Below are positions 7,707 through 12,965 of a stretch of 64,000 nucleotides of DNA, piece by piece; position 1 is the first letter of the stretch, and each line of letters starts with the position of its first letter. The notes under the pieces were generated by a model that saw nothing but the letters and a program-made list of their open reading frames with translations, did no database searches and was not told the DNA's origin. A program made the position numbers and the translations under genes. The stretch is from Orenia metallireducens (GTDB lineage: Bacteria > Bacillota > Halanaerobiia > Halobacteroidales > Halobacteroidaceae). The stretch covers positions 587,224 to 651,223 of the forward strand of contig NZ_LWDV01000008.1 in assembly GCF_001693735.1 (NCBI RefSeq), written 5' to 3'.

Positions 7707-7782
7707 GTGTTTCTGTTTATTATTATATTTAAGGAAACTAAGTTGGAGAGCAGATTGATTTGCTCTTCTTTTTTATACATCA

Positions 7783-7972
7783 GATTAGTTAGAGCTTCTG
7801 ATGGTTATGAAATTGTAAGAAGTATAAATGATCAATTTGCTGATGATGAAAGTAGCATAGATATACTTGGAATTATCCAGACTTCGCTGGAGAAAGAGTT
7901 TATATCGAAATCGTTGATAATTTTACAGGTGGCTGGGATCACATTAATGTAGATGATATTAATATTTACTAA
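7783..7972 (+). pseudogene. Remnant of a secreted glycoside hydrolase C-terminus
   Basis: Two frames together read VRASDGYEIVRSINDQF and, after a shift near 7850, TWNYPDFAGERVYIEIVDN then TGGWDHINVDDINIY and a stop at 7970-7972. The phrase pattern YIEIVDN-x-TGGWxHINVDD is characteristic of C-terminal modules of GH32-like and related secreted glycosidases. No start, signal peptide or catalytic domain is present, so only a 3' scrap survives. The exact parent family is uncertain. Confidence 0.5.
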
Positions 7973-8013
7973 TATTAGATAAGCTTATTATTGATACTTT
8001 GAATGATAAAAAT

Positions 8014-8047
8014 CCCTTACTATAAATTTATAGTAAGGGGTTTTTTG
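8014..8047. terminator. Bidirectional terminator
   Basis: A 13-bp perfect stem (CCCTTACTATAAA/TTTATAGTAAGGG) is followed by a T run on the plus strand and by ATTTTT on the minus strand. It lies just after the 3' end of the minus-strand multicopper oxidase and can terminate both that operon and plus-strand read-through. Confidence 0.75.
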
Positions 8048-8065
8048 TTAAATAAATCATTAATT

Positions 8066-11000
8066 TTAATCTGTTAAAGTTAATAAATCACGATTTATAG
8101 AAGAATGTACTCTGATTATTCCCCACATACCCAATTCAATATCCCAGCGAATCAGACCCGAACTATACATAAAATCTCCTGATGGATTTAAAAATCCTCC
8201 TGCTCCATAGAGTAGTTTTTTATCCAACTCTCTTCCAATAGTAATCTCACCTTGAATTCCAATAATATTTGTGAAGTTATCTTCTGCTTGATGTTTATAG
8301 AGGTGATTATGGATAAAGAAGCTATGTGCTCTAGATTTATCAGCAGGCATTAGTAGGCGAACTGTGGCTGGGTCTTTGGGATAGAGATTGAAAATTGGAG
8401 TAGATGGGTCACCATGAACTAAAGAACTAAATACTTCATTAACATCTTGGTCATTTTTTAGGCGGTTAAAGAAGGGTTCACTTCTTAAGTTAAAGGCTTT
8501 CATACCTTGATCTTCTTCATCAAATTCTTCAGTCTTTTTACTATCTGGAGGATTAAAGAAGAACTTAGGTAACAACTCATTATTTTTATCGACTAAAAAC
8601 ACCCCATCATGTTGGATAATTACTAACTCACGAAAGTTTGGAATAAAAGGATTTATAATATCAACTTGTTCCTTAAAGGGTGTAAATTTACCAGTAGAAG
8701 AGTCGCGATAATTAGAACCTTCAGCCTCGACTATAAGAGCTCCAAATAATCCATGATGGCGGTGGTTTCTGATATCACCATAATCTACTAAGTTAGTTGT
8801 TCCTACAGGTTTAGATAGATACCACCTATAGGTTATGCTCTCTCCAGGACCTACAGTCTGGTCAGGATTAAATCCTATTGTAGCACCATCAGAGTTAAGA
8901 ATCTCATAGTCTACTAATTGTGGGTGGAGTGATACTCTTGGTGAATAGGGCCATTCTTCTTCTACAGCAACTTCAGGGTGAGGATGATCTTCAATAGTTT
9001 CTGGCATCATGTTTGTCAAAGTAACTTCAATACAATCTCCAATATTTCCTCTAATAATAAGAGGCTTAGGATTATAATCTACTGTATAGATTTCATTGAT
9101 TTTATCAACTGGGACAAAGACCATTCCAAAAGGATCATGATCATTATATTGATTATAGATAATAGGGTGCTGGATAGCTGCTATATGATATTTTCTAATT
9201 GGTGTATTCTCTGGATGAGGATTAGTAGTATTAATTGCTTTAGGAGGTGGAGTTCCAGTTTTTTCTGGTAAGGGTAGAGTTCTTTCTTCTAAAGGATCAC
9301 GATCAGATAATGGTTTTAAGAAAGGAACTCTTCTACCTCTAACTCTAATCAATCCCCAACATCCTAACCATAAGTCATCTAATCCAGCCGAGTTATACAT
9401 AAGATCAAAATCTTCATTATGAGATCCACCTTCAAGGGAAAATTCAAAGTTAAAGGCTTCTGATATTCCAATATGTTGTGCCTGAGTCAGAGAAGAATTT
9501 AAATTTCTTCTATCTCTATGCCAATACTCACGATGAATGTTTATTGCATGGGACTCTTCAAAAGCACCGTCAATTAGCCTGATTCTAGCTGGGTCACCTT
9601 TATATCCTTGAAATACAGGAGTAGCTGGATCACCATGTACCCATGAACTGAAGACATAGGCTGGATCACCACCTCTAATCTGGAAGGGTTCATTTCTATA
9701 ATTAAAAGCCATAACCCCAAAATCATCTAAAGAGCCAGGTACATTAGGTGGATTTAGAGGATTACCATCTCCATCAAAGAGAGGAACAAAATCATGAACT
9801 GCTAAGCAATATTCTCTAAAGTCTGGTATGAAAGGATTCTCTATGGTTGCTTCTGTACCAGCAGTTAAAGGTTCACCAGTAAAGGAATTTTTGAAGTTAG
9901 ATCCTTCTGCTTCCACTAATAGGGAAGCAAATACTCCATGATGTTGATGGGATTGGGCGAAAAGATGATCATGGAAGAAGACGGTCTTTAATTCAGTATC
10001 AGCAAACCATCTATAGATTCCAGTTTCACCATGGGCTACACAACTTAAGTAATTCCATCCTACATTTGCACCATCAGCAGCTATTACATCAAATTTAACA
10101 AAATGGACATGGGCTCCACAGAAGGGAGTTTCTTCTAAAGTCTGAAAAGCATTTCCCCCAATTGTTTCAGGTAGTTTATTGGTTAGATGAATCTCAATAC
10201 ACTCTCCAGCATTTGATCTGATAAATAATGGCTCTGGTTCTTTAATTCCTGCTCTAATGTCCTCTTCATCTTCTGCTAATACGTATAATCTACCTTGTGG
10301 GTCAAACCATTTAGCATCATTATAAATAATAGGTATCTCCATAGCAACTATATCATACCTTCTAACTGGTACATCTTCGGGGCAAGGGTTGACAAAAGGT
10401 GCTCCAGGAACTGGATTCTTATCAAAAGCGTTGGCCTCTAGTTGGGTAGGTTCAAAATCTCTATTAAATCCTAGAGGTGGTAGTGGCGAGAGTTGACCAA
10501 CCTCTCCAGGAATAAAGAGAGGAAAACCAGGTCTCTCTGGAGTAGGCTCTGGTGGTAAGGGTCTATCAGGTAATGGGATTAATGGTTGAATTGGTCTTCC
10601 ATCAGGATAAAACCTACCTTCTCCATTCTCTAAAACATCATGGGTTCTAAAGATCCCCCACATTCCTTCTCCAAAATGGGGGTACAGGTGGCAGTGGTAG
10701 ATAGAGTCTCCATAAGCTCCATGTAAACTACCTGCTCCATAAAGAACATCAAAGGTAATTGTCTGTTGAGGGCTTATTTCTCTTGAATCATTTAATTCTG
10801 AATGGGGATCATTGATCTCTGATAGCCATTGATGAACATGAAGGTGAAAGATATGAGTCTCCTTAACTCCACCATGTATAACATGGAATCTCATAGGATC
10901 ACTTATATAAGCTCTAGGAATTGGTGTAGCAGGATCTCCAAAGGCCCAGGAATCATGGTGAACTTCTTCACCTATACATCCTTCACATACTTCTCCTTCT

Positions 11001-11692
11001 TCTATTAATCTCTTTCTATTACGCATAGGTTCAGCTCTATAGTTGATAGCATGGGTAGATTGTGGTAGACCCGTAATTGGATCTAAGGGTGGATTCCCAT
11101 CTTTAGCTTTTATAGCAGGTTCATCATGAAAGACGATAACTGCCTCTCTAAAATCAGGCAAGAAAGGATTATGGATATCAACTATTGCTCCACTCTCGAC
11201 AGGTTTCCCAGTTTGAGGATCAGTCCAAGTAGAGCCAGGGGGTTCTACTATAAATCCTCCAAAAAGTCCATGAAGGTTACTTCCTAGTTCAGAACTAAGG
11301 GGATTAGCTAAATCACTAAATTGAAATGCCCCTTGGGTATTAGCTTCAAATTCATAGATGATAGACTTTGTAGGAGGAACAGTGGTATTAGGGTTTCTTC
11401 CTACAAAAGCACCATCAGAGGTCTTAACATCATAATCTAGCCCCTTTAAATTCATAGAAGCAGGAAAATCAAGCTTATTTGTAAATTTGATTTCAACCTT
11501 ATCACCTTGATTTGCTCTCAAGATTAAAGGTTCAACAAGATCAATAGGAATTAAACCGAACTCGTTTACTAGAGCTATGATTTGTTCTTCTTTTTCTTCT
11601 AAAACATAGAGCATACCATTAGGATCATGGTCACCAAACTTATTATAGACAATAGGTATCTGTATTGCTACAACACTATATTTTCTTAGCAT
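8066..11692 (-). CDS. Giant three-repeat multicopper oxidase, MnxG-like
   Basis: The protein has about 1,208 residues and is built from three tandem ~380-residue repeats, each probably two cupredoxin domains. They begin at RKYSVVAIQIPIVYN (3), RRYDIVAMEIPIIYN (445) and RKYHIAAIQHPIIYN (833). Repeat 1 carries HIFHLH (H280, H283, H285) and the type-1 motif HCHLYPHFGEGM (H333, C334, H335, H339, M344). Repeat 2 carries HVH (528-530) and HDH (574-576). All four canonical copper motifs are therefore present, but in the order 3-4-1-2. Repeat 3 has only scattered His clusters. Length and small upstream partners match Bacillus MnxG. I see no signal peptide. ATG 11692 was chosen because GGGTGA lies just before it; ATG 11710 would overlap the upstream gene. 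Confidence 0.8.
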   Translation of the reverse strand: MLRKYSVVAIQIPIVYNKFGDHDPNGMLYVLEEKEEQIIALVNEFGLIPIDLVEPLILRANQGDKVEIKFTNKLDFPASMNLKGLDYDVKTSDGAFVGRNPNTTVPPTKSIIYEFEANTQGAFQFSDLANPLSSELGSNLHGLFGGFIVEPPGSTWTDPQTGKPVESGAIVDIHNPFLPDFREAVIVFHDEPAIKAKDGNPPLDPITGLPQSTHAINYRAEPMRNRKRLIEEGEVCEGCIGEEVHHDSWAFGDPATPIPRAYISDPMRFHVIHGGVKETHIFHLHVHQWLSEINDPHSELNDSREISPQQTITFDVLYGAGSLHGAYGDSIYHCHLYPHFGEGMWGIFRTHDVLENGEGRFYPDGRPIQPLIPLPDRPLPPEPTPERPGFPLFIPGEVGQLSPLPPLGFNRDFEPTQLEANAFDKNPVPGAPFVNPCPEDVPVRRYDIVAMEIPIIYNDAKWFDPQGRLYVLAEDEEDIRAGIKEPEPLFIRSNAGECIEIHLTNKLPETIGGNAFQTLEETPFCGAHVHFVKFDVIAADGANVGWNYLSCVAHGETGIYRWFADTELKTVFFHDHLFAQSHQHHGVFASLLVEAEGSNFKNSFTGEPLTAGTEATIENPFIPDFREYCLAVHDFVPLFDGDGNPLNPPNVPGSLDDFGVMAFNYRNEPFQIRGGDPAYVFSSWVHGDPATPVFQGYKGDPARIRLIDGAFEESHAINIHREYWHRDRRNLNSSLTQAQHIGISEAFNFEFSLEGGSHNEDFDLMYNSAGLDDLWLGCWGLIRVRGRRVPFLKPLSDRDPLEERTLPLPEKTGTPPPKAINTTNPHPENTPIRKYHIAAIQHPIIYNQYNDHDPFGMVFVPVDKINEIYTVDYNPKPLIIRGNIGDCIEVTLTNMMPETIEDHPHPEVAVEEEWPYSPRVSLHPQLVDYEILNSDGATIGFNPDQTVGPGESITYRWYLSKPVGTTNLVDYGDIRNHRHHGLFGALIVEAEGSNYRDSSTGKFTPFKEQVDIINPFIPNFRELVIIQHDGVFLVDKNNELLPKFFFNPPDSKKTEEFDEEDQGMKAFNLRSEPFFNRLKNDQDVNEVFSSLVHGDPSTPIFNLYPKDPATVRLLMPADKSRAHSFFIHNHLYKHQAEDNFTNIIGIQGEITIGRELDKKLLYGAGGFLNPSGDFMYSSGLIRWDIELGMWGIIRVHSSINRDLLTLTD

Positions 11693-11696
11693 ACTA

Positions 11697-11975
11697 TCAC
11701 CCATTTCCATAATTTTGATTATTGGTCATACCAAATTTAGCAGGAGTAGGAATTTGATTTTGTTCATCTTCTGGGAAGATAGCAACAATATTTTCTAGAA
11801 CTATAGTAAAGGGAATATCTCTTAATTCAACAGGCACTCCAAAGTTTGGTTTTACTATAATATGATCATCAGCAGCTTGCTGTAAAGTTCCTACCATAAA
11901 GAAAGGGAAAGTTTCTAAAATAACTATAGTCTTCTTACCAAGACTTTCTTCTAATCTATCTATAATATTTGACAT
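11697..11975 (-). CDS. Small MnxE/MnxF-like subunit, copy 2
   Basis: The 92-residue protein immediately precedes the multicopper oxidase gene, whose preferred start lies 4 nt beyond this stop. It begins SNIIDRLEESLGKKTIVIL and has a compact beta-rich middle (VGTLQQAADDHIIVKP, PFTIVLENIVAIFP) with a Gln/Asn/Gly-rich tail. It appears distantly paralogous to the gene upstream, sharing DRLEE, VxIL and IxIVxPF-type positions. By position, size and pairing it is a candidate equivalent of MnxE or MnxF, the small subunits that oligomerise with MnxG in Bacillus. Sequence homology to those proteins was not checked. An AAGGAGG site precedes ATG 11975. Confidence 0.65.
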   Translation of the reverse strand: MSNIIDRLEESLGKKTIVILETFPFFMVGTLQQAADDHIIVKPNFGVPVELRDIPFTIVLENIVAIFPEDEQNQIPTPAKFGMTNNQNYGNG

Positions 11976-11998
11976 TTTATTAACCTCCTTGCTATTTT

Positions 11999-12280
11999 TT
12001 ATATTAAAGCAAATCTAGTATCAGAATCAAAAGGAGAAACGATAGCAATCTTCTCCATAGGTATTAATAAGGGTGTTGGAAAGATAAATTCTGGTGCATT
12101 TGACATCTTAATATTTACATTCTTCAATTCTATATATTTATCACTAACTTTTACAATTTTAGCACATAAGATAGGTCTAAAGACCTGTCCAAGAATATTT
12201 AATTGTCCAGGTTTTAATATCATTAATACATCTTTGTCCTTTAATTCTTCTAAACGATCTTCAAGATCTGATAAAGACAT
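11999..12280 (-). CDS. Small MnxE/MnxF-like subunit, copy 1
   Basis: The first gene of the oxidase operon encodes 93 residues. It opens with a short helix (LSDLEDRLEELKDKDVLMIL) and continues with a small beta-rich fold (GQVFRPILCAKIVKVS, YIELKNVNIKM, PLLIPMEKIAIVSPF). It resembles the next gene in length, layout and several residues, so the two likely form a heteromeric small-subunit ring or layer. One Cys is present. The start follows AAGGAGGT. The spacing of about 23 bp to the second gene supports co-transcription. Function is inferred from context only. Confidence 0.6.
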   Translation of the reverse strand: MSLSDLEDRLEELKDKDVLMILKPGQLNILGQVFRPILCAKIVKVSDKYIELKNVNIKMSNAPEFIFPTPLLIPMEKIAIVSPFDSDTRFALI

Positions 12281-12527
12281 ATCTGTACCTCCTTGTTAAT
12301 CTAGTAACTTACAACCTCATATATATTTTACTATTCTTTTAATTATGTTTTGTAAATTTTTCCTTGTTATTGCTTTTAGAAGGTCAAACACACCCAGTTT
12401 CTTCTTTATATTTTGCTGTTTTTCTTGTTAAAGTCGGAGGAAAATTTTATTCTATGATTAATCAGATACTAATAAATAACATATTTATTAATGTACACCT
12501 AATTAAATTGATTGATGAGGAGGGAGT

Positions 12528-12965
12528 ATTATCAAGTTAGAGGCAAGAGTCAAATTTTTAGAGTTTGCTTATGCAGGTGCTTTGGTAGATTCTCTATTTC
12601 GTTTTAGTGAAGAAGGAATCTTGGAGAAGGTAACTGAGAAGAGAAGAAAGGAGCAGATATTATTTGGAGCTGAGAAGGCAAAAAACTTTGGGGTGAGCAG
12701 CCCTGAGGAGGTCTTTACTAAAATTTCAGAACTATTTAACTGTACTTTCTGGAAAATCAAAGAAGATAATAAAGGATTCTTAGCAAAGGCTAATAGTTGT
12801 AAGCTAGCTGCTATGGCTAAGGAGGTTGGTGCAGGTCCTCCATGTGATATTTATTGTTTAGACCCAATAGAAGGGATGCTAAAGGGTTTAAATCAGGATT
12901 ATCAGATAGAAGTGGAAGAGACTTTATGGCAAGGGAAGAAGTGCAAAGTAAAGGTTAGTGAGTAA
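12528..12965 (+). CDS. ATC-hydrolase-like (PF14196-type) protein, ATT start
   Basis: The protein has about 145 residues. The conserved C-terminal part CKLAAMAKEVGAGPPCDIYC followed by LDPIEGMLKGL resembles the L-2-amino-thiazoline-4-carboxylic acid hydrolase family. Many members of that family have no proven activity. The frame shows coding character back to 12528 (KLEARVKFLEFAYAGALVDS), upstream of the first usual start codon TTG 12582. A near-perfect GAGGAGGG stands just before ATT 12528 and ATC 12531, and an in-frame TGA lies at 12516. Start at ATT (or ATC) is therefore most likely. Several conserved Cys could bind metal or be redox-active. Confidence 0.65.
   Translation: MIKLEARVKFLEFAYAGALVDSLFRFSEEGILEKVTEKRRKEQILFGAEKAKNFGVSSPEEVFTKISELFNCTFWKIKEDNKGFLAKANSCKLAAMAKEVGAGPPCDIYCLDPIEGMLKGLNQDYQIEVEETLWQGKKCKVKVSE

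Follow-up and report, generated by a model that had tools for sequence, protein, structure and literature searches.

The closest described relatives of the system considered here are the manganese oxidases of marine Bacillus spores, which combine a multicopper oxidase, MnxG, with two small proteins, MnxE and MnxF. In Bacillus sp. PL-12 the smallest gene set that gives Mn oxidation is mnxEFG, the spores carry the activity, and the complex is known to be an E3F3G1 assembly, in which an alternating E3F3 ring of the small subunits, found by mass spectrometry, is joined by MnxG (PMC5622069). A disulphide has been reported for the Bacillus MnxE and a three-histidine copper site suggested in MnxEF; the benefit of bacterial Mn oxidation is an open question, for which several competing answers have been listed (PMC5622069). 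A 2013 paper (PMC3600357) already lists MnxG for Clostridium perfringens; in the open-licence literature, an incomplete sample, we found no anaerobe described as having all three mnxEFG genes. Here we describe an mnxEFG operon in a 64,000-nucleotide stretch of the Orenia metallireducens genome (contig NZ_LWDV01000008.1, positions 587,224 to 651,223; hereafter the window). Its genes are true mnxE, mnxF and mnxG, and they probably encode an authentic MnxEFG complex from a lineage of its own that is sister to the Bacillales type; by analogy with Bacillus, the predicted activity is that of a spore-borne, O2-dependent Mn(II) oxidase.

With the marine Bacillus systems (PL-12, structure 9bxa; SG-1, locus L065) the window locus shares the three proteins, the gene order E-F-G, the copper ligands and a predicted Sm-like fold of MnxE and MnxF. 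It differs from them in its separate branch, in the loss of a MnxF histidine, in having one MnxE cysteine, in lacking adjoining mnxA-D genes (including the Sco-like mnxC) and, at the level of the genome, in lacking a Sco protein and the two main respiratory oxidase types. Its nearest relatives are Mnx systems with a fused MnxF and MnxE (loci L006, L101 and L107), which fall with it in one clade (100/100) and are also missing the MnxF histidine; these, however, have one protein with the F part first, whereas the window has two genes with mnxE first. The solo MnxGs of Clostridia (Lachnospiraceae, Ruminococcus, Carboxydocella, loci L002-L004) likewise belong to anaerobes and have the same six-domain oxidase and copper ligands, but they form a separate clade, have no mnxE or mnxF in the flanks examined, and lack an HHD motif (251-253) and 14 other residues common to the MnxGs that are accompanied by MnxE and MnxF.

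The operon and its multicopper oxidase

All three genes lie on the minus strand, with mnxE and mnxF directly upstream of mnxG (Table 1). The listed open reading frame (ORF) of mnxG, beginning with the ATG at 11710, overlaps mnxF; the ATG at 11692 is preceded by GGGTGA, aligns with the Bacillus start (MLRK) and is more likely to be the true start. With it the gaps are 23 nucleotides between mnxE and mnxF and 4 between mnxF and mnxG, so that the genes form one tight operon, and clear ribosome sites stand ahead of mnxE and of mnxF. A first-pass annotation made from the letters of the window had described two small genes preceding an oxidase gene of about 1,208 residues, in a tight minus-strand operon closed by a terminator; all of its coordinates check out, as do the short gaps and the hairpin.

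In a search of the Protein Data Bank (PDB) the window MnxG aligned over residues 7-1209 with MnxG of Bacillus sp. PL-12 (9bxa_A) at 1296 bits. The next-best chains were two-domain (small) laccases at about 50 bits, which share the cupredoxin type and the copper motifs but have a two-domain in place of a six-domain chain; the oxidase is thus no nearer to another multicopper oxidase family. The NCBIfam model of the proteobacterial MnxG (NF041487, 1894 positions) gave 282 bits, far below its curated cut-off of 3100 bits: that oxidase shares the name and partial homology, but is longer and different. Pfam Cu-oxidase_3 matches three times along the window MnxG, and its 12 copper ligands (Table 1; residue numbers are those of the 1214-residue version) are invariant among 87 aligned MnxGs, in agreement with the three repeats and four copper motifs seen at first pass. 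One apparent ligand difference from 9bxa_A arises because that structure is, by its title, an H340A mutant. At the level of sequence, MnxG is thus shown to be a multicopper oxidase of six cupredoxin domains, in which the type-1 and trinuclear ligands are present as a single complete set.

A further 17 MnxG residues, which the window has in common with L006 and with at least 95% of the 54 Bacillales-type MnxGs, occur in fewer than 10% of the 29 solo MnxGs. Eight of these lie within residues 220-257, including H220, H251, H252 and D253, and together with the others they offer targets for mutagenesis of a Mn site or a ring contact.

Small subunits, relatives and fusions

Both small proteins have their only PDB match at E<=10 in phmmer searches in the corresponding Bacillus chain: MnxE in 9bxa_B (MnxE; E=1.8e-16) and MnxF in 9bxa_E (MnxF; E=0.012). 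When hidden Markov models (HMMs) were built from the relatives with the window and L006 excluded, only mnxE (6.4e-35) and mnxF (9e-12) were matched among the 248 window ORFs. The AlphaFold models have a mean predicted local distance difference test score (pLDDT) of 82 for MnxE and 87 for MnxF. With Foldseek, the MnxF model finds 9bxa_E first (template modelling score, TM, 0.72; E=1.1e-6) and the 9bxa MnxE second; the best match of the MnxE model is 9bxa_B (TM 0.68; E=4.5e-6). After the 9bxa chains both models match Sm, LSm and Hfq proteins. As modelled, MnxE and MnxF are Sm-like proteins, which fits the alternating E3F3 ring of Bacillus. Sequence, profile, gene order and fold all identify the pair as MnxE and MnxF and not as members of an unrelated family; the mutual similarity ascribed to them at first pass holds for the fold and not for the sequence (BLASTP E=0.60, 21%). 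The spore-coat protein GerQ is among the structural matches of both models.

A scan of named genomes yielded 365 relatives, 80 of which were examined. The mnxE and mnxF genes adjoin mnxG in nearly all Bacillales loci; none were seen in the flanks examined, some of which are cut by a contig end, in loci of Lachnospiraceae, Oscillospiraceae, Peptococcaceae and Carboxydocella. In the MnxG tree the proteins accompanied by MnxE and MnxF form one clade and the solo MnxGs another (100/100), and the window, L006, L101 and L107 form one branch (100/100), sister to the Bacillales type; the tree is rooted by midpoint only, so that either a gain or a loss of mnxE and mnxF may have come first. The window MnxG is 62-66% identical to those of L006, L101 and L107, and no sequence found exceeds 66% identity with it.

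The window branch comprises four genomes so far, in three of which MnxF and MnxE are fused into a protein of 223-234 residues consisting of an F domain, a charged linker and an E domain. An assembly error is unlikely because the fusion is present in three genomes. Such 1:1 fusions are consistent with an E3F3G1 assembly and a 1:1 alternating ring, and they provide simpler proteins for structural work; we found no report of them in the literature sampled. The genome of L006 has neither the COX1 family nor cytochrome bd. Cytochrome bd is present in that of L101 (G325), and that of L107 (G397) has a COX1-family match, which may be a nitric oxide reductase; the branch is therefore not confined to strict anaerobes.

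Other loci show further variation. Short MnxG-like pieces of 46-113 residues (42-61% identity), which look like gene remnants, occur in three genomes of the same phylum (L108, L109 and L110; G275, G227 and G371). Tandem mnxG copies are found at L033, L020, L013 and L041, with two full mnxEFG sets at L033. Directly upstream of mnxE in L127 (4817-5479; G382) lies an ORF of 220 residues with no Pfam match, which may encode a further Mnx or spore-coat protein.

Predicted function in an anaerobic host

The host genome (3.47 Mb, 99.91% complete, 3.4% estimated contamination) has a SpoIVA match and five matches to the [FeFe]-hydrogenase domain. It gave no match to the COX1 family or cytochrome bd, with controls as expected and other oxidase types not searched. 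Two genomes of the same genus lack both oxidases and also MnxG, which the host alone has among 59 genomes of the class. The first-pass annotation had found the setting, an apparent anaerobic spore-former, surprising: the setting is supported at the level of the genome, but MnxG by itself is no surprise there, solo MnxGs being widespread in anaerobic Clostridia.

In the preferred reading, that of a spore-borne Mn(II) oxidase, an E3F3 ring would carry MnxG as in Bacillus, and Mn(II) would pass electrons singly to the type-1 copper; the trinuclear site would convert O2 to water, and Mn(III/IV) oxide would be left behind. On spores exposed to oxygen the complex would remove O2 and coat the spore with Mn oxide, and this coat could later be an electron acceptor after a return to anoxia. 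The N-termini of MnxE, MnxF and MnxG, as read from the sequence, have no obvious export signal; therefore the spore surface is the likeliest place for the complex, which, on the Bacillus pattern, would be produced in the mother cell. Its role is probably not respiration, because the host lacks the two main respiratory oxidase types. Respiration can thus be struck from the benefits proposed for Mn oxidation where this host is concerned, and the ideas of protection from O2 and of a stored electron acceptor become testable in it. We tentatively propose, as a possibility well short of probable, a more specific form of this reading: a distinct Mnx branch whose E/F ring lacks accessory copper ligands, and with which the spores of an obligate anaerobe would use transient O2 to build a Mn oxide shell, both consuming the O2 and storing an acceptor for growth after germination.

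Several points weigh against a spore-borne Mn(II) oxidase. A histidine conserved in 52 of 57 MnxF sequences is valine in the window, arginine in L006 and serine in L101 and L107; the window MnxE has one cysteine and zero histidines, and the two small proteins combined have a single histidine. The accessory copper sites proposed for the Bacillus MnxEF are hence not conserved, and a disulphide within the window MnxE is impossible with its one cysteine, although the two cysteine columns of MnxE are not universal (Cys in 36 and 35 of 55 sequences). Small subunits without these candidate ligands also provide a test of what the enzyme requires. No SCO1/SenC protein (Sco type, the family of mnxC) was found in the host genome, and no mnxA-D genes adjoin the window mnxEFG. 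Like the MnxF histidine and the MnxE cysteines, mnxA-D count here as accessory and not as defining traits of a Bacillus-type complex, and in PL-12 mnxEFG are enough for activity on their own (PMC5622069). The sole sigma-K-like match upstream of the operon (12368-12339) is at chance level, with 0.77 expected per window for a pattern that was fitted to this very site, and does not establish a sporulation promoter; sigma-70-like promoter matches are below the shuffled mean. The suggestion that residues 220-257 of MnxG contribute to a Mn site or to E/F contacts is our guess. That the subunits assemble, that they use O2 to oxidise Mn(II), that they reside on the spore and that the host benefits are all inferred.

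The same changes in the small subunits, namely the MnxF histidine lost across the window branch and the one remaining MnxE cysteine, would also suit an Mnx-type complex with another natural substrate, such as Fe(II), Cu(I) or an organic reductant, in which O2 is used when present and the altered E/F ring reflects a changed substrate path. Many metal-oxidising multicopper oxidases are promiscuous, a point in favour of this alternative. However, among the positions conserved in the Bacillales type the window MnxG retains 24 of 25 histidines (71% in solo MnxGs) and 90% of the glutamates (84%), and the residues specific to MnxGs with E/F partners are kept; we regard a different substrate as unlikely.

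The absence of an export signal and of both oxidases could also be accommodated by a cytoplasmic O2 scavenger of growing cells, which would use Mn(II) or some other reductant to remove traces of O2 in place of the missing terminal oxidases. Against this, species of the same genus do without both the oxidases and MnxG, and the complex is evidently not needed for that purpose; the assembly of a copper enzyme in an anoxic cytoplasm would be awkward; and the Bacillus Mnx is spore-borne (PMC5622069). A vegetative scavenger appears quite unlikely, and more so than a change of substrate.

Genomic spot and origin

The operon occupies a spot that varies among sister species. In a genome of the same family (G004) the SRPBCC gene adjoins trkA; in the window the two are separated by mnxEFG and a small ATC-hydrolase-like gene. 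The same small gene is present at the spot in G001, together with ankyrin-repeat, transglutaminase-like and ABC-transporter genes, and G002 has a glycosidase-like gene there (names read from sequence). The simplest reading is that mnxEFG was gained in this species. The third-position GC content of the operon (0.16-0.22; neighbours 0.21-0.36) does not stand out as a mark of foreign origin.

Because other genes fill this spot in sister species and MnxG is confined to a single genome among the 59 of the class, the operon might be a passenger that was acquired recently and has no function in the host. We consider this very unlikely: all three frames are open, all copper ligands are retained, and the third-position GC is similar to or lower than in the neighbouring genes. 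The estimated contamination of the genome would be the one point in favour of an assembly contaminant from a Bacillus-like organism, whose probability we take to be negligible. The operon lies inside a 689-kb contig, its flanks are 81-98% (trkA side) and 91% (SRPBCC side) identical to a genome of the same genus, and its MnxG is not close to anything found; on the synteny of the flanks this explanation was rejected.

Table 1. Positions of the operon features in the window and of the fused genes in related loci
Feature	Position	Strand	Description	Basis or source
mnxE	11999..12280	(-)	93 aa (amino acids), predicted Sm-like small subunit	phmmer, left-out HMM, model
mnxF	11697..11975	(-)	92 aa, predicted Sm-like small subunit; conserved histidine -> valine	phmmer, left-out HMM, model
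mnxG	8066..11710	(-)	six-domain multicopper oxidase, 1214 aa; likelier start 11692 = 1208 aa	
mnxG copper motifs C + D	10661..10855	(-)	H286 H289 H291; H339 C340 H341 H345 M350; type-1 site and part of trinuclear site	
mnxG copper motifs A + B	9965..10111	(-)	H534 H536; H580 H582; remainder of trinuclear site	
mnxG codons 220-257	10940..11053	(-)	8/17 residues specific to MnxGs with E/F (H220 ... H251 H252 D253 ... F257)	
Terminator-like hairpin	8014..8039	(-)	11-pair stem and T tract, 3' of mnxG	
Operon upstream region	12281..12581	(-)	contains sigma-K-like match, not above chance	
Variable spot	7707..12581	(.)	between SRPBCC gene and ATC-hydrolase-like gene/trkA; gene content differs among sister species	
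F-E fused ORF	L006:5286-5990			Ammonifex sp. metagenome-assembled genome
F-E fused ORF	L101:5179-5883	(-)		G325
F-E fused ORF	L107:748-1419			G397

Between the SRPBCC gene and mnxG, at 7794-7985 on the plus strand, there is a decayed coding stretch in two frames (IRLVRASDGYEIVRSINDQFADDE..., TWNYPDFAGERVYIEIVDNFTGGWDHINVDDINIY). Its pieces have no Pfam family match; the stretch may be, as we presume, the end of a glycosidase.

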